Below are positions 13,024-25,493 of a DNA stretch of 60,294 nt, in pieces. Made by a program: the position numbers and the translations under genes. The stretch is from Plantactinospora mayteni (GTDB lineage: Bacteria > Actinomycetota > Actinomycetes > Mycobacteriales > Micromonosporaceae), in assembly GCF_016862935.1 (NCBI RefSeq), contig NZ_BONX01000041.1, positions 1 through 60,294 of the forward strand, in the 5' to 3' direction. Numbering within the stretch: position 1 is the stretch's first letter; each line of letters begins with the position of its first letter. The notes under the pieces are model-generated. The model was not told the DNA's origin. It saw nothing but the letters and a program-made list of their open reading frames with translations, and ran no database searches.

Positions 13024-15296
13024 CCCAGCCGGGCCAGGGGCCTGGGCCGACGTCCGCCGCCCTCGACGAGTTCGCCCAGCACTGGGCCCGGGTGATGGCC
13101 CAGATCAGCTACGTACCGGTGCGCCTGGACGAGCTGCGACAGGTACTGCTCGGCTACGCCGAACGGATGGCCGGCTCGCCCGACGGGCTGGCCGCGGCCC
13201 GGGAGGTCGGCGCCGCGCTGGTCGCCGACGGCTACACCAACGTGTCGGCGTTGCACGCCACCGTCGCCGCCCTGGCCGCACACTTTCCACCCCGCGACCC
13301 CGCGACCGACCCACGCCCGAACGCGCGTCACGACGCCGCGACCGACCCACGCCCGGACGCAGGCTACGACGCCGCGACCGGCGCGCGTGACGACGGCGTG
13401 ACCGACCCGCGTCATGACGTTGCGACGGATCGGCCCGGCGAGGCACCGGATCGGGGCGGCCGGACCGAGTTGCTGGGCGCGGTCGCCGCCGGGTACGCCC
13501 GGGCGCTGCGCGAGCGGACCCAGCGCGAGCTCGAGTCGATCATCAGGGCGGTGCTGACCGCCCGACGTACCGCCGAGCGGGCCTGGGCGGCCAGCGAGGC
13601 GCGCTTCGAGGCCCTCTTCGTCTCCTCGGCGAGCGGGATCTGCGTCGTCGACCCGGAGAACCGGATAGCGCAGGCGAATCCGGCGCTGGCCCGGATGCTC
13701 GACCGTCCGGTCGCCGAACTGGTCCGGCGGCGACTGACCGGGCTCGCCCAGTCCGGGCACCGGGCGGCGGTCGGCCGGGCACTCGACGAGCTGCACGCCG
13801 GCCGCCGGGCCCACGCCGAACTCGACGCCGCCTTCGGCCGCCCGGACGGCGGCACCGTCTGGCTACGGCTCTCGCTGGCCCCGGTGCCGCACGGCGAGGT
13901 GACCCACCTGGTCGTCACCGCGCAGGACGACACCGAGCGCTACCACCTGCAATCCGCACTCTCCCACCAGGCGCTGCACGATCCGCTGACCAACCTGCCC
14001 AACCGGGCGCTGGTACTGCGCCGGCTCGACGAGCTGATCGACGGGCTCGGCCCGGACGAGCACGTCGGGATCTGCTATCTCGACCTCGACGGGTTCAAGA
14101 CGATCAACGACTCGTTCGGGCACGCCGCCGGCGACGACGTACTCCGTACCGTCGCCGTCCGGCTCGCCGGGTGCGTGACCGAGCCCGGCTGGCTGGCCGG
14201 CCGGCTCGGTGGCGACGAGTTCGTCATCGTCGCCGCCGACTCGGACCCGACCCGGCTGGTCCGGGTCGCCGAGCGGGTGGTGTCGGCGGTCCGGCAGCCG
14301 ATCCCGGCGGCCGGACACCAACTCTCGGTCTCGGTGAGCATCGGGGTGACCGACGACCGGATCCCGCACGGCCAGCCGAGCGATCTCATGCGGGCCGCCG
14401 ACATCGCGCTGTACTGGGCGAAGGCGGCCGGCGGCGACCGCTACGAGGTCTACGACGCGAACCGGCACGACGCGCAGGCGCTCCGGTCGACGCTCGCCAA
14501 GGGGCTCCGCTCGGCCCTGCACCGGGACGACTTCACGCTGCGGTACCAGCCCATCGTGCGGCTTGCCGACGGCGTGCCGATCGGCGCCGAGGTGCTGCTG
14601 CGGTGGACCCATCCCGAGCACGGTCCGGTCGCGCCGGAGATCTCCATCGACCTCGCCGAGGAGATCGGCCTGATCGGGCAGTTGGGGCGCTGGGTGCTGA
14701 CCCGCGGCTGCCAGCAGGCCGCCCGCTGGTATCGGGACCTCGGCGATCGGGCGCCGTTCGTCAGCGTCAACCTCTCCGCCCGGCAACTGCACGACGTCGG
14801 CCTCGCCGACGACCTGCTGCGTACCCTCGACGAGGTCGGGCTGCCGGCCTCCCAGTTGCAGCTCGAACTGACCGAGAGCGCCCTGCTCGGGCCGGCGCAG
14901 GGGCCGGCCGACGCACTGGAGGCGCTGGCCGCGCACGGCGTACGGGTCGCGGTCGACGACTTCGGCACCGGCTACTCCAACCTCGCCTACCTGCGTCGAC
15001 TACCGGTACGGGAGCTGAAGATCGCGGGCGCGTTCATCGATGGCCTCACCCCCGGGCATTCCGGTACGCCCGCCGACCGGCAGATCGTGGCCAGCGTGAT
15101 CGCGCTCGCCCACGGGCTCAACCTCACCGTCACCGCCGAGGGGGTGGAGACCCGGGAGCAGGCCCGGTTGCTCCGCTCGATGGGCTGCGACCACGCCCAG
15201 GGCTGGTGGTTCGCCCGGCCCGGCGAACCGGACGTACTGCCCCGGATGCTTGTCGGCGAGGGCGGAAAACCGGTTGATCCGGTCCCCATGTACTGA
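13020..15296 (+). CDS. PAS-GGDEF-EAL cyclic-di-GMP enzyme
   Basis: About 758 aa from GTG 13020, which overlaps the methyltransferase stop. Order: a helical N-terminal domain, an Asp/Pro/Arg/His repeat linker (about 95-140), a PAS domain (about 195-310), GGDEF (about 315-480) with the intact signature RLGGDEFVIVA near residue 395, and EAL (about 495-755). EAL residues are largely kept: Glu in GAEVLLRW, NLSARQL, ELTES, DDFGTGYS, Lys in RELKIAG, AEGVET and AQGWWF. EAL itself reads EVL, and the residue after LKI is Ala rather than Asp. Both cyclase and phosphodiesterase activity look possible. No membrane segment is present, so the PAS domain senses a cytosolic signal (inference). Confidence 0.92.
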   Translation: MTQPGQGPGPTSAALDEFAQHWARVMAQISYVPVRLDELRQVLLGYAERMAGSPDGLAAAREVGAALVADGYTNVSALHATVAALAAHFPPRDPATDPRPNARHDAATDPRPDAGYDAATGARDDGVTDPRHDVATDRPGEAPDRGGRTELLGAVAAGYARALRERTQRELESIIRAVLTARRTAERAWAASEARFEALFVSSASGICVVDPENRIAQANPALARMLDRPVAELVRRRLTGLAQSGHRAAVGRALDELHAGRRAHAELDAAFGRPDGGTVWLRLSLAPVPHGEVTHLVVTAQDDTERYHLQSALSHQALHDPLTNLPNRALVLRRLDELIDGLGPDEHVGICYLDLDGFKTINDSFGHAAGDDVLRTVAVRLAGCVTEPGWLAGRLGGDEFVIVAADSDPTRLVRVAERVVSAVRQPIPAAGHQLSVSVSIGVTDDRIPHGQPSDLMRAADIALYWAKAAGGDRYEVYDANRHDAQALRSTLAKGLRSALHRDDFTLRYQPIVRLADGVPIGAEVLLRWTHPEHGPVAPEISIDLAEEIGLIGQLGRWVLTRGCQQAARWYRDLGDRAPFVSVNLSARQLHDVGLADDLLRTLDEVGLPASQLQLELTESALLGPAQGPADALEALAAHGVRVAVDDFGTGYSNLAYLRRLPVRELKIAGAFIDGLTPGHSGTPADRQIVASVIALAHGLNLTVTAEGVETREQARLLRSMGCDHAQGWWFARPGEPDVLPRMLVGEGGKPVDPVPMY
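13300..13440 (+). repeat. In-frame degenerate tandem repeats in the cyclic-di-GMP gene
   Basis: Units resembling GCGACCGACCCACGCCCGNACGC.. repeat four to five times and encode ATDPRPNARHDA / ATDPRPDAGYDA / VTDPRHDVA. They form a flexible charged linker between the N-terminal helical domain and PAS. Confidence 0.7.
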
Positions 15297-15848: not shown

Positions 15849-16730
15849 GTGCCGCATCATCATCCGAATCGAGAGAACCGTCCGCATGCCCGCCGGGCTG
15901 ACCCGCCGGTCCGCCGGCAACCCGACCGACCGGCCAGGCCGGCGGTGCGTACCGGGCAGGACCGGTCGCGCCGGGTGCTCGGGCAGAACTTCCTGCGCGA
16001 CGAGCGGACCATCGCGCAGATCGTCACGTCGGCCCGCCCGGACCCGGGCGGGCTGGTCCTGGAGGTCGGCGCGGGGCAGGGGGCGCTGACCAGGGAGCTG
16101 GTCCGGCGGTGCCGGCGGGTCGTCGCGTACGAGATCGACCCCGCCCTGGTCGCCCGGCTCGGCGAGGAGTTCCGGTCCGAGCCCGGGATCCGGGTCGTAC
16201 ACGCCGACTTCGTCGCGGCCCAGCCGCCCGGCGAGCCGTTCGCGGTGGTCGGCAACATCCCGTACGCCTCGACCAGCCGGATCGTCGACTGGTGTCTCGA
16301 CGCCCCACGGCTGACCACCGCCACCCTGGTCACCCAGTTGGAGTACGCCCGGAAGCGCTGCGGCGACTACGGCCGGTGGACGCTGCGGACCGTGCAGACC
16401 TGGCCGTGGATGAACTGGCGGCTGGCCGGCCGGATTCCCCGGGAGCGGTTCCGGCCGATGCCCCGGGTCGACTCCGGCATCCTGCGCCTGGAGCGCCGGG
16501 CGGTGCACCTGCTGCCGGCGCACCAACTCGCCGACTACGAGCGGTTCGTCGCGCTCGGCTTCGGCGGGGTGGGCGGCTCGCTGCGGGCCTCGTTGCACCG
16601 TGGCTATCCGGCACGCCGGGTCGACGCCGCGCTGCGGGCCAACCGGGTGCCCGCCGACATCCTGGTCGGGTACGTCTGGCCGGAGCAGTGGATCTCGTTG
16701 TTCCAGGCGGTCCACTCGGCCCGGCGCTGA
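15849..16730 (+). CDS. erm: Erm-family 23S rRNA adenine N6-methyltransferase
   Basis: About 293 aa. Erm landmarks: QNFLRDERTIAQIV, SAM motif LVLEVGAGQGALT, acidic YEIDPAL, catalytic motif VVGNIPYAST, and the Erm-specific TLVTQLEYARKRCGDYG. These enzymes methylate A2058 of 23S rRNA and give MLS-type (macrolide, lincosamide, streptogramin B) resistance. The sequence is of the actinomycete producer type, with a His/Arg/Pro-rich N-terminal extension before residue 40. GTG 15849 is preceded by a good GGGAGGA site. No macrolide biosynthesis gene is in the window, so it is probably a housekeeping or intrinsic resistance gene (inference). Expression may be controlled through the repeat-bearing 550-bp upstream region. 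Confidence 0.93.
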   Translation: MPHHHPNRENRPHARRADPPVRRQPDRPARPAVRTGQDRSRRVLGQNFLRDERTIAQIVTSARPDPGGLVLEVGAGQGALTRELVRRCRRVVAYEIDPALVARLGEEFRSEPGIRVVHADFVAAQPPGEPFAVVGNIPYASTSRIVDWCLDAPRLTTATLVTQLEYARKRCGDYGRWTLRTVQTWPWMNWRLAGRIPRERFRPMPRVDSGILRLERRAVHLLPAHQLADYERFVALGFGGVGGSLRASLHRGYPARRVDAALRANRVPADILVGYVWPEQWISLFQAVHSARR

Positions 16731-16805: not shown

Positions 16806-16863
16806 CGGTCGCCCGATGGCGGGGCCGGGTGCCGGCCGGCTGGCTTGCGGCCCGGCTCTCCGG

Positions 16864-17390
16864 TCAGTAGGTGATGAAGCCGTACAGGGCCAGGTGGTTC
16901 GACCTGGTGCCAGCCACGGTGTGGTCGACGGCGGACGGTTGCACGCTGCCCTGGACAAAGAGGTAGTCGATCTTGCTGGAGCCGCTGGTCGCCCGCGAAC
17001 CGTAGCCGGTCATGCCGTAGCCGCTCAGCGTCGACGCCGGGATGCCGGTGCGGTTCGCGTCGATGCCGACCACCCGGATCGTCGAGGCGTTCATCAGGCT
17101 GGTGGCGTCGGCGCCGAGGTGGATACCGGTGCCGCCGATCCCGGTGTAGCCGTCCCCGGCACAGGCGTTCTGCCGGTTCTCCTGTGGCAGGTGCATGGTG
17201 GCGGCGAAGACCGTGGTGCCGGTCGCCTTGACGGTGAACCGCGCCGCGATGGCGCTGGTCCGCTTCCACTTGTGATAGTCGATGCTGTCCGGGTCGCTGT
17301 TCGGTGGCTTGTAGAGCGTGCACCCGGCACCGTTGGCGTACGCCGTCCCGGGCTTCAGCCAGCCGGCGCTCCAATCCGAGCCGTCCGATC
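16864..17390 (-). pseudogene. C-terminal remnant of an endonuclease/exonuclease/phosphatase-family protein
   Basis: The minus strand encodes about 175 residues ending TRSNHLALYGFITY. They contain VFAATMHLPQEN, VVGIDANRTG and KIDYLFVQG, which match the C-terminal half of secreted EEP-fold phosphodiesterases (GDANR and D-H-type ligands). The frame is closed upstream by a TGA just beyond DGSDWSAGWL (about 17391), with no start codon or N-terminal half, and the promoter of the Trypco2 gene follows. The gene is therefore broken. It may mark the left edge of the inserted Trypco2/STAND locus (inference). Confidence 0.7.
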
Positions 17391-17490
17391 AGGATGGACG
17401 ATGGCGAACTGCGGTGGACCGTGCGGGACCGGATGCGCGAGAATGGCATGAGTTGCCACAGTGCAACCAGCCATGGAGGTGACGAGTTCG

Positions 17491-17811
17491 TTGGCAGCAG
17501 ATGACCAGGAGATCGGCCTCGCGGCCGCGCTCGGTGCGATCCGCCGGGAGCTGGCCGAGGCGATGGAGTCGGCCGAGGCCGAGGGCGGGCCGGTACGGCT
17601 CGGTGTCTCGTCGCTCGAGCTGGAGTTGCAGACCACGCTCACCCGCGCCGGAGACGTCGAGGGTGGCATCAAGGTCTACGTGATCTCCGCCGGGGCGAGG
17701 GCGTCGGAGAGCCGCAGCGACGTGCAGACCCTCCGGATCCAGCTCGACGCCCGGACAGCCAGCGGAGAACCGGTGCAGACCAGCGACAGGCTGCGGCGAC
17801 CGCCGCGATAG
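17491..17811 (+). CDS. Trypco2-type small protein (trypsin-co-occurring)
   Basis: About 106 aa. It matches the Trypco2 (trypsin-co-occurring domain 2) pattern: EIGLAAALGAIRRELAEAM, then GVSSLELELQTTLTR, GIKVYVISAGA and TLRIQLDA, a small alpha+beta domain. Such proteins are encoded next to trypsin/STAND-type conflict genes and are thought to be regulators or substrates of the protease. The TTG at 17491 has an ideal GGAGGTGA site 8 nt upstream, and the next gene uses the same site. ATG 17473 and GTG 17461 are in-frame alternatives. Its stop is 15 nt before the protease-NTPase gene, so they form one operon. Confidence 0.78.
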   Translation: MAADDQEIGLAAALGAIRRELAEAMESAEAEGGPVRLGVSSLELELQTTLTRAGDVEGGIKVYVISAGARASESRSDVQTLRIQLDARTASGEPVQTSDRLRRPPR

Positions 17812-17826
17812 GTCGGAGGTGACGCG

Positions 17827-20800
17827 GTGGCCCAGGATACCGAGCCTCGCCCGGCCCGGGTGGCGAAGATCCTCGTGTACTGCCCACCGGGGACCAACGA
17901 GCCCGGCTTTGGCACCGGATACCAGATCTCCGACCGACTCGTGCTCACTGCCCGACACGTTGTCGACAAGGTGCCGAAGGGTTGCGACCCCGAAGACGCG
18001 GCGCTCTTCGTCGAGCTGGGCGAGGACGGCAAGGAACGGCGGGTGACCTGCGTGTGGTGCTCCCGGGAGGGTACCGACCTCGCCCTGTTGCGGCTCGACG
18101 AACCGCCGAGGGAGCGGGTCTCGCCGGTCCGGCTGGGCCGGGTGGACGTCACGAGACCGACGACGGTCAGTGCGCTCGCGATCGGATACCCGAAACACGC
18201 GGAGGTCAGCATCAGGGCGACCGGCGAGTACTGGCGTGGCCGGACGCAGGTTCCGGGCCACATCCGCACCGCCACCACCGGCCGGCCCGGGACGCTGCAC
18301 TTCCAGTTCGACGACGCACCGGCGGCGGGGCCGTTCCGCGACAGCCCGTGGAACGGGATGTCCGGCTCGGCGGTCTTCACCGCCGGGTCCCACCTTCTGG
18401 TCGGGGTGGTCCAGGAGCACAATGCGAACTCGGGGGTCAGCCAGCAGACGATCGGGGCGCTCGACGCGGCCACCGACCAACAGTGGCGCGACCTGCTCAC
18501 CGAGGACGACATCTCCCCGGACCCACGTCCGGTCTTTCCCGACGGCTGGAACCAGGACTGTACCGACCTGCTCCCGCACGGCGACTACCTTGACAACCTG
18601 GCCGACCAGGAACCGTTCCTCGGTGCCGACAGGCTGCCCTTCGTGGATCCGGGCGACCATCCGAGCGCGCCCCGCCAGGTCCTCGCCGCGCTGACCCGCA
18701 CGACGGAGAGCGCAGATCCGCGGCTCGGGGTGATGCTGGTCGGCATACCGGGGATCGGCAAGACCCGGCTCTGCCTGGAAACCGCCGCGCTCGCCGAGCG
18801 GGCGGGGTGGCTTGTCGTCCACCTTCGGCGACGGGACAACCACACGTCACTGGAGGAAGCCTGGCAGAGCCTCAAGAAGTTCTCCGCGCCGGTGTTGCTC
18901 GTCGTCGAGGATCTCGAATGGCTTGCCGGCACCGCACTCCAGACTGTCCGGTCGATCCGGGCCCCCGCCCAGGGCGGCACGCGGCTGGCCGTCCTCGGTC
19001 CCGCCCGGACCACCACGTTGCACAGGGCCGACTGGAGGCTGCCGCCGAAGAAGACCTTCGACGTCGTCGAGGTCCGCGCCGACCCGAGCTACCAGGCCGG
19101 GATTCTGCGCCAAGCGGTGCGGAATGTGGCCAAGGACGCCGTGCACCATGTGGACGAGGCGCACCTGCTGAGGATCTGCCGGGGCATCCCGGCCATCGCG
19201 GTGCTGCTCGCCGACTACTACAACCGCGAGGCCGGCAGGAACGACATCAGCGCGGCGGTACCGCTCGACGACCTGGGCATTGCCGGCTGGCTACGCGACA
19301 TGCTGAACCGGGAGGAACTGCGGGCGCGGCGGCCGGAATCCGCGTCGGAGCCGAGCCCTACGCCCGACGGACGGCTCACCGCCGCCGTGTGGATCGCCGC
19401 AGCGACTCCGCGAGCCGCCGGTGCGCTGACAGCGGCGCTGGAGAGGCGTGGCGAGATCCTCAGCCCGCTCGGTAACCGCTGGTCGCCTCTGGCCCTGCTC
19501 GAATCGCTGTGCCGCGCTGGCATCCTGACCAGGCGCGGCGACACCATCCACACGGTGCACGACCTGTACGCCGACCGCCTGCTCGAAGAGGTGCTGGTCG
19601 AACGCGATTCCGGCACGGTCTGGGGCGAACGGCTCGGCTCGACCCTCGATCCCGGGCTCGACGACCAGCAGGTGCTGCGAAACGTGGCCGTGGCTTTGCA
19701 GCGGCTGCGCGACTCGCTCGACGACCCCACAGGGCGGGCCCTCGACAGCGCCGTCGCGCGGTGGTGCGTCGACCGGGGCAAGGAGCTGACCGCGCTGCTC
19801 GACGGGGACCCCGAAGGGCAGACGCTGCACACCCTGCTGCGCCTGCCGACCTGGCGACCGGGCATCCGCCGGCTGGTCGAGCCGATCGCCGAGCTCTGGC
19901 TGAAGCGACACTACCGCGACCCGAAGTTCCGGGACGGGATACTCGCCGTCGCCTCGTGCCTGGATCCGCAGGTCGGATATCCGTACGTGATGGGCTGGCT
20001 CAGCCACAACCTCGCCAACCCCCGGGCCGCGTTCGCGTTCCACCGGCTCTCTCCGCCGGAGGGCGTCGACGCCGCCTACGACGAGTGGACGGTGGAGCGG
20101 GCCTTCCAGTGGCTGACGCAGAACAAGCCGCACCCGAACGCCTCGTTCGTGCTCCAGAACCTGCTGGACCACGGCAGGAAGCTCGGCCTGCCGCCCGGCC
20201 ATCCGTACGCCGCCCGCGTCGTCGCCTGGGCCCTCGGCTGGCTGGTGCGCAACGGCCCACACCGCAACGCGTCGTACGTCGCCCCGCCGCTCGTGCAGCG
20301 CCCGGAGCTGACCGGCGCGGAACTGGAGACGACCGCGTTCTTCCTGCTCGACAAGGTCGCGCCCCGGGAGCCATACAATGCCAGCTTCGCCCTGGAGGCC
20401 GTGCTGGCCCGGCACCGCACCCGTCGGGACCTGCCCGACGCGGTCGTCAAGCGGGCGGTGAAGGACTCGCTGGACTGGCTGGAGGACTCCCGGGGCTACG
20501 GTCTGCGACCCCAGGCCGCGTACGTGCTGGAGAACCTGATCCCGTCCGACCAGTGCACCGGGGACGCCCTCGTCCGGGTCGTGGACATCGCCATGAAGTG
20601 GCTCGCCAGGAACAAGGACGTGCCGGAGACCGGACGGGTCATCGATCCCATGCTGCACCTGGCCCGTCGGGAGACCTATCAGTGGGCCAAACTCCGTGGG
20701 GACGAGTCGGCGCGACTTGCCGAGCATGCGGTGAACTGGCTTTCGGGCCCCCGGACGAACCGGAGTACCCGGATCAGCCTGCTCGGCTCGCTGCTGGCGA

Positions 20801-21915
20801 CTCAGCTCATCGACGACGACGCCGACGAGTTGCGCCGGTGTACCGAGCAGGCGTTGGCGCTCTACCAGGAGACGCCGTTCCCGACGGTGGCGCGGGACCT
20901 GCTTCCGCCGTTGCTGAGAAAGACGGCACGGTTGGCGAAGCGTCAACCCGACCTGGCGAACTTCCGGGCCGACCTGCTGGACCTCACGTTCGATCATGTC
21001 GACCGGTACCCCCGCGACCCGCACACCAGCTACCCGCTGACCTCGCTGGTCTCCGGGTCCGACCTCGGCGCCGAGCGGTACGCGACCGCGCTGGCGGCGA
21101 CGCTGAACTGGCTCGGCGCGCACCCGACCGACGAGAGCGGGGTCAAGTTGCTGGCCGCCGCGCTGCGCAACCCGCTGGCGAGCCGGGCCGACCAGGGAAC
21201 GCTGGTGGACCGCGCCGTCGGGATGCTCTCTCCCTCGCTGCTGGGCAGCGCTCGAGGTCGCCATCTGGTCAAAGCCGTGCGGGCACAGCGCGCCGAGACG
21301 ACGCCCGAGTGGAACAGGTTCGTCGGGCGGGCCTGCGCCCAGGTGACCGACGGCGCCATGCCGGGCCGGGTCGATCTGGTGCTCCAGGATCTGCTGCATG
21401 CTACCGACGTGCTGGACGAGCCGGTGCGGCACCAACTGCACGCGACCTGCGTCAGTTGGTGCGCGGCCAGGCCCCAGTCGACCCGGGTGTTCGATCTGCT
21501 GCCGTGGGTGCTGCGCGACCGTACCCTGCCACCGGCGCTGCGGCATTCCGCGCTGGCCGTTGCCTGCGCCGGGCTCACGGCGGACGCCGCGCGGGTCGGC
21601 ACTGCCGGTCGGCTGCTCGCGGCGGTGCTGCAAGACGGGGACCTCGGCGACCCCGCCGAGGCCGACCGGGTGCTCGCCGTCGCGCTCGACTGGCTCGAGA
21701 ACCAGGTGCACGACGGCACCGCCGTCGAGCTGCTACCGCAGGTGGCACACAGGTTGCGGCGGGACGCCGGTGCGGGTCGGGCGACCCGGGACGCCGTGCG
21801 CCGGGCGGTCGGCTGCCTCGACGTGTGGCTGCTGCGGCACCCGGCGGCGCCGGCCGAGAAGCGGGCGGGCATCGAGGCGCACCGGGACGCCCTCGCCCTG
21901 CTCGACCCCGGCTGA
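17827..21915 (+). CDS. Trypsin-like protease fused to STAND NTPase and helical repeats
   Basis: A 1362-aa protein. Residues ~10-190 are a trypsin-like domain with the full triad: His44 in LTARHVV, Asp84 in GTDLALLRL, Ser179 in NGMSGSAVF. Residues ~290-620 are a P-loop NTPase of STAND/NACHT type: Walker A GIPGIGKT (306-313), Walker B VLLVVEDLEW (356-365), followed by winged-helix-like and helical segments. Residues ~640-1360 are a helical repeat array of ~40-45 aa units. No signal peptide or membrane segment is seen. By analogy with NLR-like systems, the repeats would sense a trigger, the NTPase would oligomerise, and the protease would then act on self or invader proteins (inference). GTG 17827 follows GGAGGTGA. 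It is co-transcribed with the Trypco2 gene. Strength of domain calls: protease and P-loop high, function moderate. Confidence 0.88.
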   Translation: MAQDTEPRPARVAKILVYCPPGTNEPGFGTGYQISDRLVLTARHVVDKVPKGCDPEDAALFVELGEDGKERRVTCVWCSREGTDLALLRLDEPPRERVSPVRLGRVDVTRPTTVSALAIGYPKHAEVSIRATGEYWRGRTQVPGHIRTATTGRPGTLHFQFDDAPAAGPFRDSPWNGMSGSAVFTAGSHLLVGVVQEHNANSGVSQQTIGALDAATDQQWRDLLTEDDISPDPRPVFPDGWNQDCTDLLPHGDYLDNLADQEPFLGADRLPFVDPGDHPSAPRQVLAALTRTTESADPRLGVMLVGIPGIGKTRLCLETAALAERAGWLVVHLRRRDNHTSLEEAWQSLKKFSAPVLLVVEDLEWLAGTALQTVRSIRAPAQGGTRLAVLGPARTTTLHRADWRLPPKKTFDVVEVRADPSYQAGILRQAVRNVAKDAVHHVDEAHLLRICRGIPAIAVLLADYYNREAGRNDISAAVPLDDLGIAGWLRDMLNREELRARRPESASEPSPTPDGRLTAAVWIAAATPRAAGALTAALERRGEILSPLGNRWSPLALLESLCRAGILTRRGDTIHTVHDLYADRLLEEVLVERDSGTVWGERLGSTLDPGLDDQQVLRNVAVALQRLRDSLDDPTGRALDSAVARWCVDRGKELTALLDGDPEGQTLHTLLRLPTWRPGIRRLVEPIAELWLKRHYRDPKFRDGILAVASCLDPQVGYPYVMGWLSHNLANPRAAFAFHRLSPPEGVDAAYDEWTVERAFQWLTQNKPHPNASFVLQNLLDHGRKLGLPPGHPYAARVVAWALGWLVRNGPHRNASYVAPPLVQRPELTGAELETTAFFLLDKVAPREPYNASFALEAVLARHRTRRDLPDAVVKRAVKDSLDWLEDSRGYGLRPQAAYVLENLIPSDQCTGDALVRVVDIAMKWLARNKDVPETGRVIDPMLHLARRETYQWAKLRGDESARLAEHAVNWLSGPRTNRSTRISLLGSLLATQLIDDDADELRRCTEQALALYQETPFPTVARDLLPPLLRKTARLAKRQPDLANFRADLLDLTFDHVDRYPRDPHTSYPLTSLVSGSDLGAERYATALAATLNWLGAHPTDESGVKLLAAALRNPLASRADQGTLVDRAVGMLSPSLLGSARGRHLVKAVRAQRAETTPEWNRFVGRACAQVTDGAMPGRVDLVLQDLLHATDVLDEPVRHQLHATCVSWCAARPQSTRVFDLLPWVLRDRTLPPALRHSALAVACAGLTADAARVGTAGRLLAAVLQDGDLGDPAEADRVLAVALDWLENQVHDGTAVELLPQVAHRLRRDAGAGRATRDAVRRAVGCLDVWLLRHPAAPAEKRAGIEAHRDALALLDPG

Positions 21916-21999
21916 ACCCGCGCCGCCGCCGGTGCGGACGCCCGTCGGCCCGCGCGTGGCGACCGGGTTTACCTGCCGGCCTCGGGTGTGGTGACCGGG

Positions 22000-23010
22000 T
22001 CACCCGCCGGCCCCGGGGGTGGTGACCGGGTCCAGGCCGAGGCCGTCGAGGGCGTGGGCGAGGCGGTCGTTCTCGGCTCGGAGGAAGTCGCCGAACGCCG
22101 TCCCGTCGAGATACGCGTCGGTCCAGCCGTACTTGGCCAGCACCGCCTGCCACTGGGCCGAGCCGTGCAACCGGGTGACCATCTCGCGCATCGCCGCTAT
22201 GTCGGTGTCATGCAGTCCGGGCGGCGCGACGATGCCCCGCCAGTTGGTGAAGACGACGTCGACACCCCGCTCCCGCAGGGTCGGCGCGACGGTGCCGGCC
22301 AGGCGGAACTGGCTGGTCACGGCGAGTACCCGGAGCTGGCCGGAGGCGATCTGGTCGGCGTACTCGCTGCGGCCGGAGACGCCGAAGGCGACCTGGTGGT
22401 CGAGGATCGCGGCGAGCAGGTCGCCGCCGCCGTCGAACTGCCGGTAGCTCACCTGCCGGGGCGGGATGCCGACCGCGTCCGCGATCAGCATCGGGGGGAG
22501 ATGGTCCGGGCCGCCGACGGACGAGCCGCCACCCACCGGTACGCCCGCCGGGTCGGCCCGCCAGGCCGCGAGCAGTCCGTCGATGTCCCGGTACGGCGAG
22601 TCCCGGGTCACCACCACGATGGCCGGCTCCTCGATCAGCCGGGCGATCGGGGTGGTGTCCTGGAGGGTGAACCGGGCGCCGGAGGCGTACTGGCTGCCCA
22701 CCACGCCGAGCCCCATCAGCATCATCAGGTCCGGGTTGCCCCGTTCGTAGCCGAGCCGGCGCAGCCCGACCACACCCCCGCCACCGGGCAGGTTGAAGAC
22801 CTCCACGCCACGGGCGATCCCGGCGTCGGCCAGCGCCTTGGCGGCGGTCCGCGCGGTCACGTCGTAGCCGCTGCCCGGCGCGTTCGGGACGAGCAGCCGT
22901 AATCCGGTCGCCCCGTCCGCGAGGCGGTCGGCGCAGCCCGACACGGCGACCAGTACGAGAGCGAGTGCGCCGGCCAGCCACCTCGGCGTCGGGTACCTCG
23001 TGCGGGTCAT
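22000..23010 (-). CDS. tctC: TctC-type tripartite tricarboxylate transporter substrate-binding lipoprotein (orphan copy)
   Basis: About 336 aa. The N-terminus is a lipoprotein signal with lipobox VSGCAD. TctC/BugT-family features follow: LLVPNAPGSGYDVTAR, NLPGGGGVVG, GGGSSVGGPDHL and FGVSGRSEYADQI, the pattern of extracytoplasmic solute receptors that bind small (di)carboxylates. It stands alone, without TctA/B next to it, on the opposite strand from the two-component genes whose kinase starts 186 bp away. It might be a sensory receptor for that kinase or a second receptor for the TctA/B system at 25.5-27.7 kb (inference). ATG at 23010. Confidence 0.9.
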   Translation of the reverse strand: MTRTRYPTPRWLAGALALVLVAVSGCADRLADGATGLRLLVPNAPGSGYDVTARTAAKALADAGIARGVEVFNLPGGGGVVGLRRLGYERGNPDLMMLMGLGVVGSQYASGARFTLQDTTPIARLIEEPAIVVVTRDSPYRDIDGLLAAWRADPAGVPVGGGSSVGGPDHLPPMLIADAVGIPPRQVSYRQFDGGGDLLAAILDHQVAFGVSGRSEYADQIASGQLRVLAVTSQFRLAGTVAPTLRERGVDVVFTNWRGIVAPPGLHDTDIAAMREMVTRLHGSAQWQAVLAKYGWTDAYLDGTAFGDFLRAENDRLAHALDGLGLDPVTTPGAGG

Positions 23011-23040
23011 CCGCCGATCCTGGCTGGCCGGCGCCCGGTT

Positions 23041-23055
23041 GTCACCACCTGTGAC
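23041..23055. promoter_or_regulatory. Palindrome GTCAC-N5-GTGAC between orphan tctC and kinase genes
   Basis: GTCAC at 23041-23045 and GTGAC at 23051-23055 lie in the divergent promoter region. A related GTCACC word appears in the tctCBA upstream palindrome, so this is a candidate regulator site. Confidence 0.35.
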
Positions 23056-23196
23056 CGGACCAATCTGCCGGTTGACGTCGGGGCTGGTCAGGTGAGAGCT
23101 TCCCGGTTGTCCGGGCGGCGCGTGCCGCGACCTGCCGGGCCGCGCCGGGAACCGGAACCGGAGCGCGACGGGGAACGAACCGGACGAGGAGGAGCG

Positions 23197-24822
23197 ATGC
23201 GGCAGCGGATGTCCCTGGCCGGTCAGTTCCTGCTGCTGCAACTCGGCATCGTCCTGCTGGTCGTCTGCACCGTGGCGGCCGTCTCGATCGCCGAGTCCGA
23301 TGCGGCGTTCCGCCGGGACGAGGGCTCCCGGCTGCGCTCGGTCGGGGAGAACGCGGCGATCAACCGGACCGTACGGATGGGCATCGGCGACCCGCACGGC
23401 CAGGAGGCACTGGCGGCGGTGGCGGAGAGCGCGCGGGCGGTCTCCGGCGCGACGTACGTGCTGATCGCCGACGCCACCGGCAAGCTGGTCACCGGTCCCG
23501 ACGCCGGATCGCCGATGGTGCTCGGCAGCAGCGACGGCCTCGCCGGCCGGTCCTGGGTCGGTGTGGTCGACGACGGCTCCAAGGTGCTGGTCGCGCACGT
23601 GCCGGTACTCGACGAGCGGGACGGCCGGTTCCTCGGCCTGATCGTGGTCGGCCAGACCTATCCGACGCTGCCCGAGCAGCTCGCCGCCGGCCTCACCAAC
23701 CTGCTCACCTACCTGCTGCTCGGCGGGGTACTCGGGGTCGCCGGCTCACTGCTGCTGGCCCGGCGGGTGAAGCGGCAGACGCTGGGGCTGGAGCCACGCG
23801 AGATCACCGGCCTGGTCGAGCACCGCGAGGCGATGCTGCACGGCATCAAGGAGGGCGTACTCGGCACCGACACCGCCGACCGGGTGACCCTGGTCAACGA
23901 CGAGGCGGTCCGGCTGCTCGGGCTGGCGGCCCTGCCGGTGGGCCGGTCCCTGCACGCCGAGCCGATGGAACCCCGACTGCGGGACGTACTCACCGGCAAG
24001 GTCACCGGGGTCGACCAGATCGTCCTGAGCGACGACCGGGTCCTGGTGCTCAACCGCCGGCCGGTGCTGGTCCGGGGTCGCCGGGTCGGCTCGGTGACCA
24101 CCCTGCGGGACCGGACCGAGTTGACCGCGCTCCGCCGCGAGCTGGACGCCAGCCGGAACACCACCGAGGCGCTGCGGGCGCAGGCGCACGAGTTCTCCAA
24201 CCGGCTGCACACCATCGCCGGGCTGATCGAACTCGGCGAGCACGACGAGGTGATCCGGTACGTCACCCGCGCCAGCCAGGTGCACGAGAAGCTGAACCGG
24301 GACGTCACCGAGCTGGTCCGCGATCCGGCGCTGGCCGCGCTGCTGATCGCCAAGGCCAGTCTCGCCGCCGAGCAGGGTGTCCGGCTCGCGGTCTCCCCGG
24401 AGTCGGACCTGCCCCCGGTCGACGACCAGCTCGCCGCCGACCTGGTGACGGTGGTCGGCAACCTGGTCGACAACGGGCTGGACGCGGCCGGCTCCGGTGG
24501 CCGGGTGGAGGTCGCGCTCGCCCGGGTCGACGCGGAGGTCGTGGTCCGGGTCGGCGACTCCGGCCCGGGGGTCCCGCCGGAGTTGGTCGAGGAGGTGTTC
24601 CGGCAGGGGTACAGCAGCAAGGATCCGGCCCGGGGCCACCACGGGCTCGGTCTGGCGCTGGTCCGGCTGATCTGCCAGCGCCGGGGCGGCAGCGTCGAGG
24701 TCGACGGGGCGTCGTTCCGGGCCCGGCTGCCGCTGTCCGGCCCGGAGCGGGCCGGGGACGCCGCGCTGTCCGCCGGTACCCCGGGCCGGGGGGCTCCGCT
24801 GCCCGGGACGGCGCCGGCATGA
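23197..24822 (+). CDS. CitA/DcuS-type sensor histidine kinase
   Basis: About 541 aa from ATG 23197, preceded by GAGGAGGAG. One membrane segment near residues 8-30, an extracytoplasmic PAS-like sensor, a second membrane segment (about 167-190), a cytosolic PAS-like domain, then the kinase core. The phosphoacceptor His331 sits in RAQAHEFSNRLHTI, the SpoOB/CitA-type H-box. N-box LVGNLVDNGLDAA and G-boxes DSGPGVPPELV and GHHGLGLALV are intact. CitA/DcuS kinases sense citrate or C4-dicarboxylates, which fits the tricarboxylate transporters either side. It is coupled to its response regulator by a 4-nt overlap. Confidence 0.9.
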   Translation: MRQRMSLAGQFLLLQLGIVLLVVCTVAAVSIAESDAAFRRDEGSRLRSVGENAAINRTVRMGIGDPHGQEALAAVAESARAVSGATYVLIADATGKLVTGPDAGSPMVLGSSDGLAGRSWVGVVDDGSKVLVAHVPVLDERDGRFLGLIVVGQTYPTLPEQLAAGLTNLLTYLLLGGVLGVAGSLLLARRVKRQTLGLEPREITGLVEHREAMLHGIKEGVLGTDTADRVTLVNDEAVRLLGLAALPVGRSLHAEPMEPRLRDVLTGKVTGVDQIVLSDDRVLVLNRRPVLVRGRRVGSVTTLRDRTELTALRRELDASRNTTEALRAQAHEFSNRLHTIAGLIELGEHDEVIRYVTRASQVHEKLNRDVTELVRDPALAALLIAKASLAAEQGVRLAVSPESDLPPVDDQLAADLVTVVGNLVDNGLDAAGSGGRVEVALARVDAEVVVRVGDSGPGVPPELVEEVFRQGYSSKDPARGHHGLGLALVRLICQRRGGSVEVDGASFRARLPLSGPERAGDAALSAGTPGRGAPLPGTAPA

Positions 24823-25493
24823 TCCGGGTACTGGTCGTCGACGACGACTTCATGGTGGCCCGGGTGCAGCGCGGCTTCGTCGAGCGGACGCCCGGCTTCA
24901 CCGTCGTCGGGGTGGCGCACACCGGCGCGGAGGCGCTCGACGCGGTGCACCGGCTCCGCCCCGATCTGGTACTGCTCGACATCTACCTGCCGGACCTCTC
25001 CGGGCTGGAGGTGCTGCGCCGGCTGCGCGAGAGTGAGGTGGTGGTGGACGTCCTCGCGGTGACGGCGGCCCGGGACGTCGACACGATCCGGACCGCCCTG
25101 CGCGGCGGGGTGGTGCACTACCTGATCAAGCCGTTCAGCTCGGACGCGCTGCGCGACCGGCTTGAGCGGTACGCCGCCGCGCAGCAGCGGCTGGCCGGGT
25201 CGGGGGAGGTGGCCCAGGAGGATGTCGACCGGCTCTTCGTCGCGCTCCGGTCAACCCCGGTCGAGCTGCCGAAGGGCCTCACCCAGCCGACCGCCGAGCT
25301 GGTCGCCACGGCACTGCGGTCGGCCGACGGGGACCTCTCGGCGACCGAGTGTGCCGACCGGGTCGGGCTGTCCCGGGTCAGCACCCGGCGCTATCTGGAG
25401 CACTTCGTCGGGGCCGGCAAGGCCGGGGTGAGCCTCCGGTACGGCTCCGCCGGTCGACCGGAGCGACGCTACCGGTGGACCGGCGGAGCGTGA
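24819..25493 (+). CDS. CitB/DcuR-type response regulator
   Basis: About 224 aa. The receiver domain has acidic pocket LVVDDD (residues 6-10), phosphoacceptor Asp54 in LVLLDIYLPD, and Lys in YLIKPF. The C-terminal part ends in a winged helix-turn-helix (DLSATECADRVGLSRVSTRRYLEHFV) of the CitB type. It overlaps the kinase stop by 4 nt (ATGA). It probably activates the convergent tctCBA operon and/or the orphan tctC in response to carboxylates (inference). Confidence 0.9.
   Translation: MIRVLVVDDDFMVARVQRGFVERTPGFTVVGVAHTGAEALDAVHRLRPDLVLLDIYLPDLSGLEVLRRLRESEVVVDVLAVTAARDVDTIRTALRGGVVHYLIKPFSSDALRDRLERYAAAQQRLAGSGEVAQEDVDRLFVALRSTPVELPKGLTQPTAELVATALRSADGDLSATECADRVGLSRVSTRRYLEHFVGAGKAGVSLRYGSAGRPERRYRWTGGA

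Follow-up and report, generated by a model that had tools for sequence, protein, structure and literature searches.

In a 60,294-nt stretch of Plantactinospora mayteni DNA (NCBI RefSeq assembly GCF_016862935.1, contig NZ_BONX01000041.1, positions 1 to 60,294; hereafter the window, on contig C41 of the 9.8-Mb genome), two plus-strand open reading frames (ORFs) 15 nt apart, 17491-17811 and 17827-21915, encode a small Trypco2 protein and a 1362-aa protein in which a trypsin-like protease is followed by a nucleoside triphosphatase (NTPase) of the predicted signal transduction ATPases with numerous domains (STAND) class and by a putative solenoid sensor. We read the pair as a two-gene conflict module, in which an NLR-like (nucleotide-binding, leucine-rich repeat-like) or Avs-like sensor would activate its protease through assembly and Trypco2 would be the dedicated regulator or adaptor, and we put the probability of this reading at roughly 60%. 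The first-pass annotation, made from the sequence alone, had noted the short spacing and the GGAGGTGA site in front of each gene, and both hold; the genes look like one operon, with Trypco2 made just before the protease. An alternative in-frame GTG at 17461 would give a Trypco2 protein of 116 aa.

The strongest evidence for a two-part system is that the genes form a discrete accessory insertion. In the congener G001, DNA matching the window at 16862-17373 (93% identical) and 22004-23001 (89% identical) encloses 717 bases, as against 4,630 in the window, and neither gene lies there; the G001 genome gave no match to the large protein and none to Trypco2. The 717 bases are made up of the remainder of a gene for a 357-aa secreted-looking protein and a short intergenic stretch. 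Genome G006, from another congener and collinear with the window on its contig C34, has the unit together with a full-length frame of this neighbouring gene, and the window has the unit with the neighbouring gene cut short at 17373. From the comparison of G001, G006, and the window, the acquired piece comprises the two genes and little else. The neighbouring gene and its remnant gave no Pfam match; the C-terminus of the 357-aa protein resembles endonuclease/exonuclease/phosphatase proteins. The large protein was found in two of the seven genomes of the genus, and its whole-length relatives in Streptomyces and Micromonospora, at 39-43% identity, would fit spread between genera. The unit was apparently acquired horizontally. 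Its synonymous divergence (dS) from G006 is 0.31 for both genes, only slightly above the 0.20-0.28 of five other window ORFs, so that it has probably been inherited since the split from G006.

The first-pass annotation had also made its proposal depend on the two genes occurring together in other genomes, which they do. When 300 genomes of the family (Micromonosporaceae) were searched for Trypco2, 102 gave matches, 99 of them above the cut-off; the matches fell at 135 places, of which 98, mostly the better-scoring, were fetched; the Trypco2 profile was built from 16 plus-strand matches and the protease profile was grown from the window protein. In 78 of the 98 loci a protease domain followed Trypco2 directly, on its strand. 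Where the downstream ORF had at least 350 aa (76 loci), the protease domain started at most 100 nt past the end of Trypco2 in 72, and a Walker A motif followed the protease in 66, in 62 of them at a distance of 62-100 residues. Pfam, run on the stretch that follows the protease (450 residues at most) in 77 members including the window protein, identified AAA_16 in 41 and nSTAND_NTPase5 in 31 (E 1e-3 or better), and in the same members NPHP3_N (19), NACHT (15), CHAT (3), NB-ARC (2), and VMAP domains (1 each). Among the fetched loci Trypco2 is therefore mostly associated with protease-STAND, and not VMAP, proteins. The pairing of Trypco2 and protease is beyond chance. A second Trypco2 and protease-NTPase unit is present in the genome that holds the window (L122, G000:C81, with Trypco2 near C81:8751-8984); it belongs to another core group, with a weak NPHP3_N match and the Walker A sequence GPPWSGKT.

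A contig scan for close relatives with the single window protein found nothing. An alignment-based scan, with one genome per species, found 46 named loci encoding relatives of the STAND core, most of them in actinomycetes such as Streptomyces and Micromonospora, with an Acidobacteria metagenome-assembled genome and Sorangium besides. Seven of these coincide with loci already in the data set (L206=L073, L210=L041, L214=L173, L222=L172, L234=L174, L244=L171, and L249=L060). An N-terminal protease was identified in 32 of the 46 (29 by profile, L225 and L240 by Pfam, and L235 by tblastn across a frame break). The 14 others include two with a caspase domain (L246 and L250) and one with a weak, sub-cut-off Mrr match (L251), and the N-terminal part of the remaining 11 gave no Pfam match at E 0.01. 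Upstream of the 32 protease-bearing relatives we found Trypco2 in 23, Trypco1 in three, a diverged Trypco2-like protein in five, and no Trypco in one (L231, where the neighbour is GvpL/F); Trypco1 or Trypco2 was seen in none of the 14 protease-free relatives. The Trypco1 loci, L225 and L240 (identified by Pfam) and L235 (by a profile from those two and the own-genome copy), have the same core carrying another protease lineage, with Trypco1 in place of Trypco2. Fisher's test gave p 7e-6 for Trypco2 (23/32 vs 0/14) and p 2e-7 with Trypco1 added (26/32 vs 0/14), for loci that are not phylogenetically independent; with L216, L217, L218, L228, L230, and L238, which are alike in size and layout, counted once, p was 9e-6 (tally 31 and 15). 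Over 63 sequences, Trypco2 distances correlated with those of the protease at r 0.735 and with those of the NTPase at r 0.623 (partial r 0.546 vs 0.258). It is the protease that the partner follows, and another kind of protease brings another partner, on sensor cores that remain related. The genome that holds the window also has a Trypco1 gene, at C36:59270-59533.

The diverged Trypco2-like proteins come from Micromonospora and Verrucosispora loci (L171=L244, L173=L214, L174=L234, L215, and L221). The two that were scanned gave no Pfam Trypco2 match; in a profile-profile comparison with a Trypco2 alignment free of such proteins, the diverged proteins reached 94.1% probability and E 1.2e-7 over 70 columns (reversed control 0.2%). 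L171, L173, and L174 have an extra gene between the Trypco2-like and protease genes and represent a three-gene variant, with pentapeptide repeats in L173.

The assignment of the small window protein to Trypco2 was borne out by Pfam, PF19631 being matched with 66.9 bits and E 2e-18 (cut-off 24.2). Its best-conserved positions (L10, R18, L21, A24, F/L37, E45, V64, and L85) lie in the helix and strands, and the loops and tail are the most variable parts. The residues C-terminal to the domain number 13-38 (median 21, 76 loci), too few to make up a fused effector. When PDB sequences were searched with the Trypco2 alignment, the only matches were two Lsr2 entries (E 0.4 and 0.94), which we take as chance.

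The trypsin fold proposed for the N-terminal region of the large protein was confirmed by Pfam (Trypsin_2, PF13365, 51 bits and E 3.4e-13, cut-off 27.6), by the structure model, and by Foldseek; the family profile had 137 matches among PDB sequences, and the best 60 lie in the protease region without exception. By this fold and its His-Asp-Ser triad the domain is a trypsin-like (chymotrypsin-fold) protease. The triad is where the first reading had placed it, the columns of H44, D84, and S179 being invariant in 13 of 13 family members (alignment A2), and it is intact in 75 of the 77 survey proteins; in the other two (L065 and L100) the protease is split across two frames. The base of the S1 pocket is probably Ser173, and 58 of the 77 have a serine there. 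With Ser at this likely position, Arg/Lys specificity is not expected, and the sequence suggests that the residue before the cut is aliphatic or aromatic, which would agree with the isoleucine sites of HamM.

Walker A (GIPGIGKT) occupies exactly residues 306-313, as predicted. Walker B had been called intact at 356-365; the motif is present at 356-362 (VLLVVED), but as a D-to-E variant (Glu361), and we grade it as intact because Asp362 adjoins Glu361. The first acidic column of this motif is Asp in seven of ten family members, Glu in two (the window protein and L041), and Gly in one (L060). An LGPAR motif runs up to R394, a possible sensor Arg, and a CRGIP motif up to residue 455; P455 is invariant in 13 of 13 members, its Gly not. 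Walker A, the acidic Walker B, the Arg after a strand, G-x-P, and a predicted winged helix (helices and a strand pair, residues 515-590) would place the protein in the STAND class, the motif definition of which is said to be that of Leipe et al. in 2004. The earlier call of a STAND-type NTPase accordingly holds on motifs, model, and relatives, since the Pfam matches stay below the curated cut-offs (nSTAND_NTPase5 20.5-22.6 bits against 34, AAA_16 20.9-29.0 bits against 32.6), each cut-off being a threshold of the models and not a definition of the class. For the NTPase of the window protein, NACHT gave no match at E up to 1.

The AlphaFold2 model, covering residues 1-1200 and built from an alignment of 13 sequences, has a mean predicted local distance difference test score (pLDDT) of 82.9 and a predicted template-modelling score (pTM) of 0.57. 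It presents, in order, a beta-rich protease, an alpha/beta NTPase, a winged-helix region, and then helices only. The long repeat array expected at the C-terminus appears in the model as an alpha-alpha solenoid, to residue 1200, with diverged, W-L-anchored repeats, but Pfam recognised nothing in it at E-values up to 1. Among the best 50 of 1510 Foldseek matches against the PDB, human SAMD9 ranked first (E 4.2e-7 over 1059 columns) and the SIR2-STAND protein EfAvs5 ranked 47th (E 8.8e-5); many chymotrypsin-fold proteases and an ORC1 were also present, and the other long matches were plain solenoid proteins (a spliceosomal protein, RRP12, CAND1, and importins). The long matches have low TM-scores (0.11-0.22, normalised to query length) and so mean some of the same parts and not the same overall shape. 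An NLR-like layout of effector, P-loop NTPase, winged helix, and solenoid is supported by the model. The candidate NLR-like immune system of the first-pass annotation is thus supported in part: it keeps its domains, its co-occurrence, and its layout, with SAMD9 and EfAvs5 among the structural matches, although the long matches include plain solenoid proteins. Regular W-L repeats were seen elsewhere in the family, in an ORF at 5545-6651 of L175 (G264), which holds nine of them 36-38 residues apart, 39-78% identical (mean 52%, ungapped), and gave no NTPase match.

The large protein is fast-evolving and Trypco2 is constrained. Relative to G006, the ratio of nonsynonymous to synonymous divergence (dN/dS), obtained by simple counting and open to bias from GC-rich codons, is 0.66 for the large protein (bootstrap 0.56-0.76), with 0.58-0.76 in each part and up to 1.4 in sliding windows, and 0.145 (0.04-0.31) for Trypco2 at equal dS. 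The baseline is 0.06-0.20 for five window ORFs, including three unannotated ones, and 0.42 for Erm; 13866-14936, 25500, and 28857, which have odd ratios and were taken as non-genes, were left out, as was TctC.

In the mechanism that we propose, the solenoid would bind a sign of invasion, the NTPase-winged-helix switch would leave its closed state and assemble, the N-terminal proteases would be brought together or freed by this assembly, and proteolysis of cell proteins would lead to growth stop or death. Trypco2, as partner of the protease domain, would either silence the protease or present substrates to it after assembly. We infer the order of sensing, NTPase assembly, and protease activation from the analogy with Avs1b and protease-HamA, in both of which oligomerisation on sensing is held, in the sections of PMC12799240 that treat them, to trigger a fused protease that cuts an upstream-encoded partner.

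Several observations weigh against this reading. In 20 of the 98 Trypco2 loci no protease lies directly downstream (12 with none in the stretch, five with one on the other strand, and three with one upstream). Walker A is missing from ten of the 76 downstream ORFs of at least 350 aa, four of which have only 371-402 aa; some partner proteases therefore sit on proteins other than STAND proteins. One family member, L060, is without the Walker B acid. The model of Trypco2 is poor (pLDDT 60.2, pTM 0.42) and gives its role no structural support. PADLOC gave no full-length match to the window protein, the protease part of which weakly matches its LmuA, RT-protease, Avs1b, and HamA models. The scanned neighbours (an Erm methyltransferase, TctC, a sensor kinase, a response regulator, and one matchless ORF) are not defence genes; they are ordinary, and a defence-island argument was dropped. 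Finally, a dN/dS of 0.66 across all domains is compatible with relaxed constraint too. The twelve protease-free matches to the Trypco2 profile (L081, L087, L091-L094, L098, L099, L135, L136, L138, and L140) have E-values of 6e-15 to 7e-6, and some of them may belong to a separate family.

It is doubtful, but deserves consideration, that the unit polices stress, incompatible mobile elements, kin recognition, or developmental death of a mycelial actinomycete, and not phage. STAND proteins also serve regulation, and the absence of defence genes among the scanned neighbours would agree with such a role. So would a CARD-NLR-like protease system of Caulobacter, which, according to passages of PMC13236601, lyses cells and releases gene transfer agents. 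Presence in two of seven genus genomes and rapid evolution of the large protein, however, fit an arms race better than housekeeping. We consider it unlikely that Trypco2 is a pro-effector, cut at a fixed site by the activated protease into a toxic or signalling product, as Avs1b cuts Avs1a. This idea draws on the strong constraint on Trypco2 and on a gene order and fused-protease logic shared with AVAST type 1 and protease-Hachiman, where the partner encoded upstream is cut (in the portions of PMC12799240 on these systems). But Trypco2 has only ~105 residues with, by eye, no enzymatic motif or membrane segment, and its conserved positions lie in the helix and strands, not in the loops and tail where cuts would be expected. 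Because these are the most variable parts and no effector is fused to the domain, we consider Trypco2 more likely to be a regulator or adaptor than a pro-effector; of the two roles offered in the first-pass annotation, that of regulator appears to agree with the data more closely than that of first substrate. It is very improbable that the unit is a remnant, decaying or inactive and released from constraint, as the dN/dS of 0.66 and the windows up to 1.4 might suggest, given a ratio below 1 over the whole bootstrap range (0.56-0.76), a full-length open frame in two species, and preserved triad and Walker A residues.

Coordinates of the features of the unit and its left border are collected in the table.

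Table. Features of the Trypco2 and protease-STAND unit and its left border, in window coordinates
Feature	Position	Strand	Basis
Remnant of the gene for a 357-aa secreted-looking protein	16867-17373	-	Full-length in G001 and G006; truncated at the unit's left border
Upstream region of the Trypco2 gene and left end of the acquired unit	17376..17490	+	Collinearity with G006 resumes at 17376; G001 without the content of 17373-22004
GGAGGTGA, likely ribosome-binding site of the Trypco2 gene	17475..17482	+	Sequence
Trypco2 protein, 106 aa, TTG start	17491..17811	+	PF19631, 2e-18; dN/dS 0.145 vs G006
GGAGGTGA, likely ribosome-binding site of the protease-STAND gene	17815..17822	+	Sequence
Protease-STAND protein, 1362 aa, GTG start	17827..21915	+	ORF
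Chymotrypsin-fold protease domain, residues ~10-213 (H44, D84, S179)	17854..18465	+	PF13365, 3.4e-13; model; Foldseek (Esp, Rv3671c, granzyme M, others)
P-loop NTPase, residues ~286-480 (Walker A 306-313, Walker B 356-362, Arg394, G-I-P 453-455)	18682..19266	+	Motif positions; AAA_16 and nSTAND_NTPase5 below cut-off; model
Winged-helix region, residues ~515-590 (H578 and D583 invariant in the family)	19369..19596	+	Helix and strand order in the model; invariant columns
All-alpha solenoid, residues ~600-1362, predicted sensor	19624..21912	+	Model (to residue 1200 only); diverged W-L repeats; no Pfam match

To the left of the unit, 15849-16730 (plus strand) encodes an ErmE/H/O/R-group 23S rRNA methyltransferase (371 bits with NCBIfam NF000337, cut-off 320), perhaps an intrinsic self-resistance of an actinomycete. 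Bordering the unit, at 22000-25493, a TctC-like receptor gene stands beside a Cache/PAS sensor kinase and a response regulator, which are perhaps a tricarboxylate-sensing set.

Trypco1 and Trypco2 were named by Kaur et al. (2020) from VMAP systems, where they are presented, in passages of that paper (PMC7159879), as mutually exclusive neighbours of trypsin-like domains; part of a later paper terms them adapter domains (PMC10907252). Trypsin-like domains joined through effector-associated domains (EADs) to inactive STAND modules are treated in a portion of PMC8195603, from which Trypco is absent by full-text search. Avs1b, a related protease-STAND protein, was studied experimentally with a nuclease partner, as sections of that report relate (Tuck et al. 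2025; PMC12799240). In mostly open-access literature, supplementary data aside, we found no description or experimental study of a Trypco2 and protease-STAND pair, nor, in mostly open-access literature, a report on the function of Trypco1/Trypco2 since their naming in 2020. Trypco2 and protease-STAND proteins have each been published, and it is their combination that appears to be new.

The same STAND core thus occurs with natural effector swaps (protease and Trypco2, protease and Trypco1, caspase, or no recognised effector), which pose the clean question of whether the small protein binds and controls the protease. If it does, proteolysis aided by a built-in partner would be a new kind of output for bacterial NLRs, next to nuclease, SIR2, TIR, and gasdermin. 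More tentatively, Trypco1 and Trypco2 could be interchangeable, effector-specific partners of two intracellular protease lineages, together forming a plug-in cassette on many actinobacterial NLR-like sensors, nuclease-free and parallel to the cassette of protease and metallo-beta-lactamase (MBL) pro-nuclease in Avs1, Hachiman, and Lamassu. In that case regulated proteolysis would itself carry out immunity, Trypco2 would be its dedicated gate, and the unit may be among the commonest NLR types of the family.

Of the known systems compared, AVAST type 1, reportedly described by Gao et al., consists of the MBL pro-nuclease Avs1a and the protease-STAND protein Avs1b. As here, the gene of the partner precedes that of a fused protease-STAND protein, but the partner is an MBL pro-nuclease there and Trypco2 here, so that the unit does not qualify as Avs1. 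Similarity to Avs1b is confined to ~96-98 residues of the protease (27-124; PADLOC E 0.0059; NCBIfam 15.9 bits, cut-off 1500). In the VMAP ternary (MoxR-vWA) systems Trypco2 likewise neighbours a large core protein to which a trypsin-like domain is fused, in the passages of PMC7159879 that describe them, whereas the core here is an apparently active P-loop STAND module with a solenoid; VMAP, MoxR, and vWA gave no match in the seven scanned window proteins or in the window core segment, which places the unit outside VMAP systems there. Bacterial NACHT/NLR-related proteins and EfAvs5 (SIR2-STAND), as portrayed in part of PMC10907252, share the order of N-terminal effector, STAND NTPase, and C-terminal sensor, and differ from the window protein with its protease effector, its small partner gene, and an NTPase nearest to nSTAND_NTPase5 and AAA_16. 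The CARD-NLR systems of Lysobacter and Caulobacter (LypABC) also combine a trypsin-like protease with a STAND-type ATPase and end in lysis or death, but portions of PMC13236601 describe separate protease and NLR proteins, with a CARD before the protease. Here the two are fused and the protease starts near residue 10, with no CARD-sized domain ahead of it, which sets the unit apart from CARD-NLR systems. By the defining partners tested, the unit is none of the known types compared, and it is well defined and widespread in the family.

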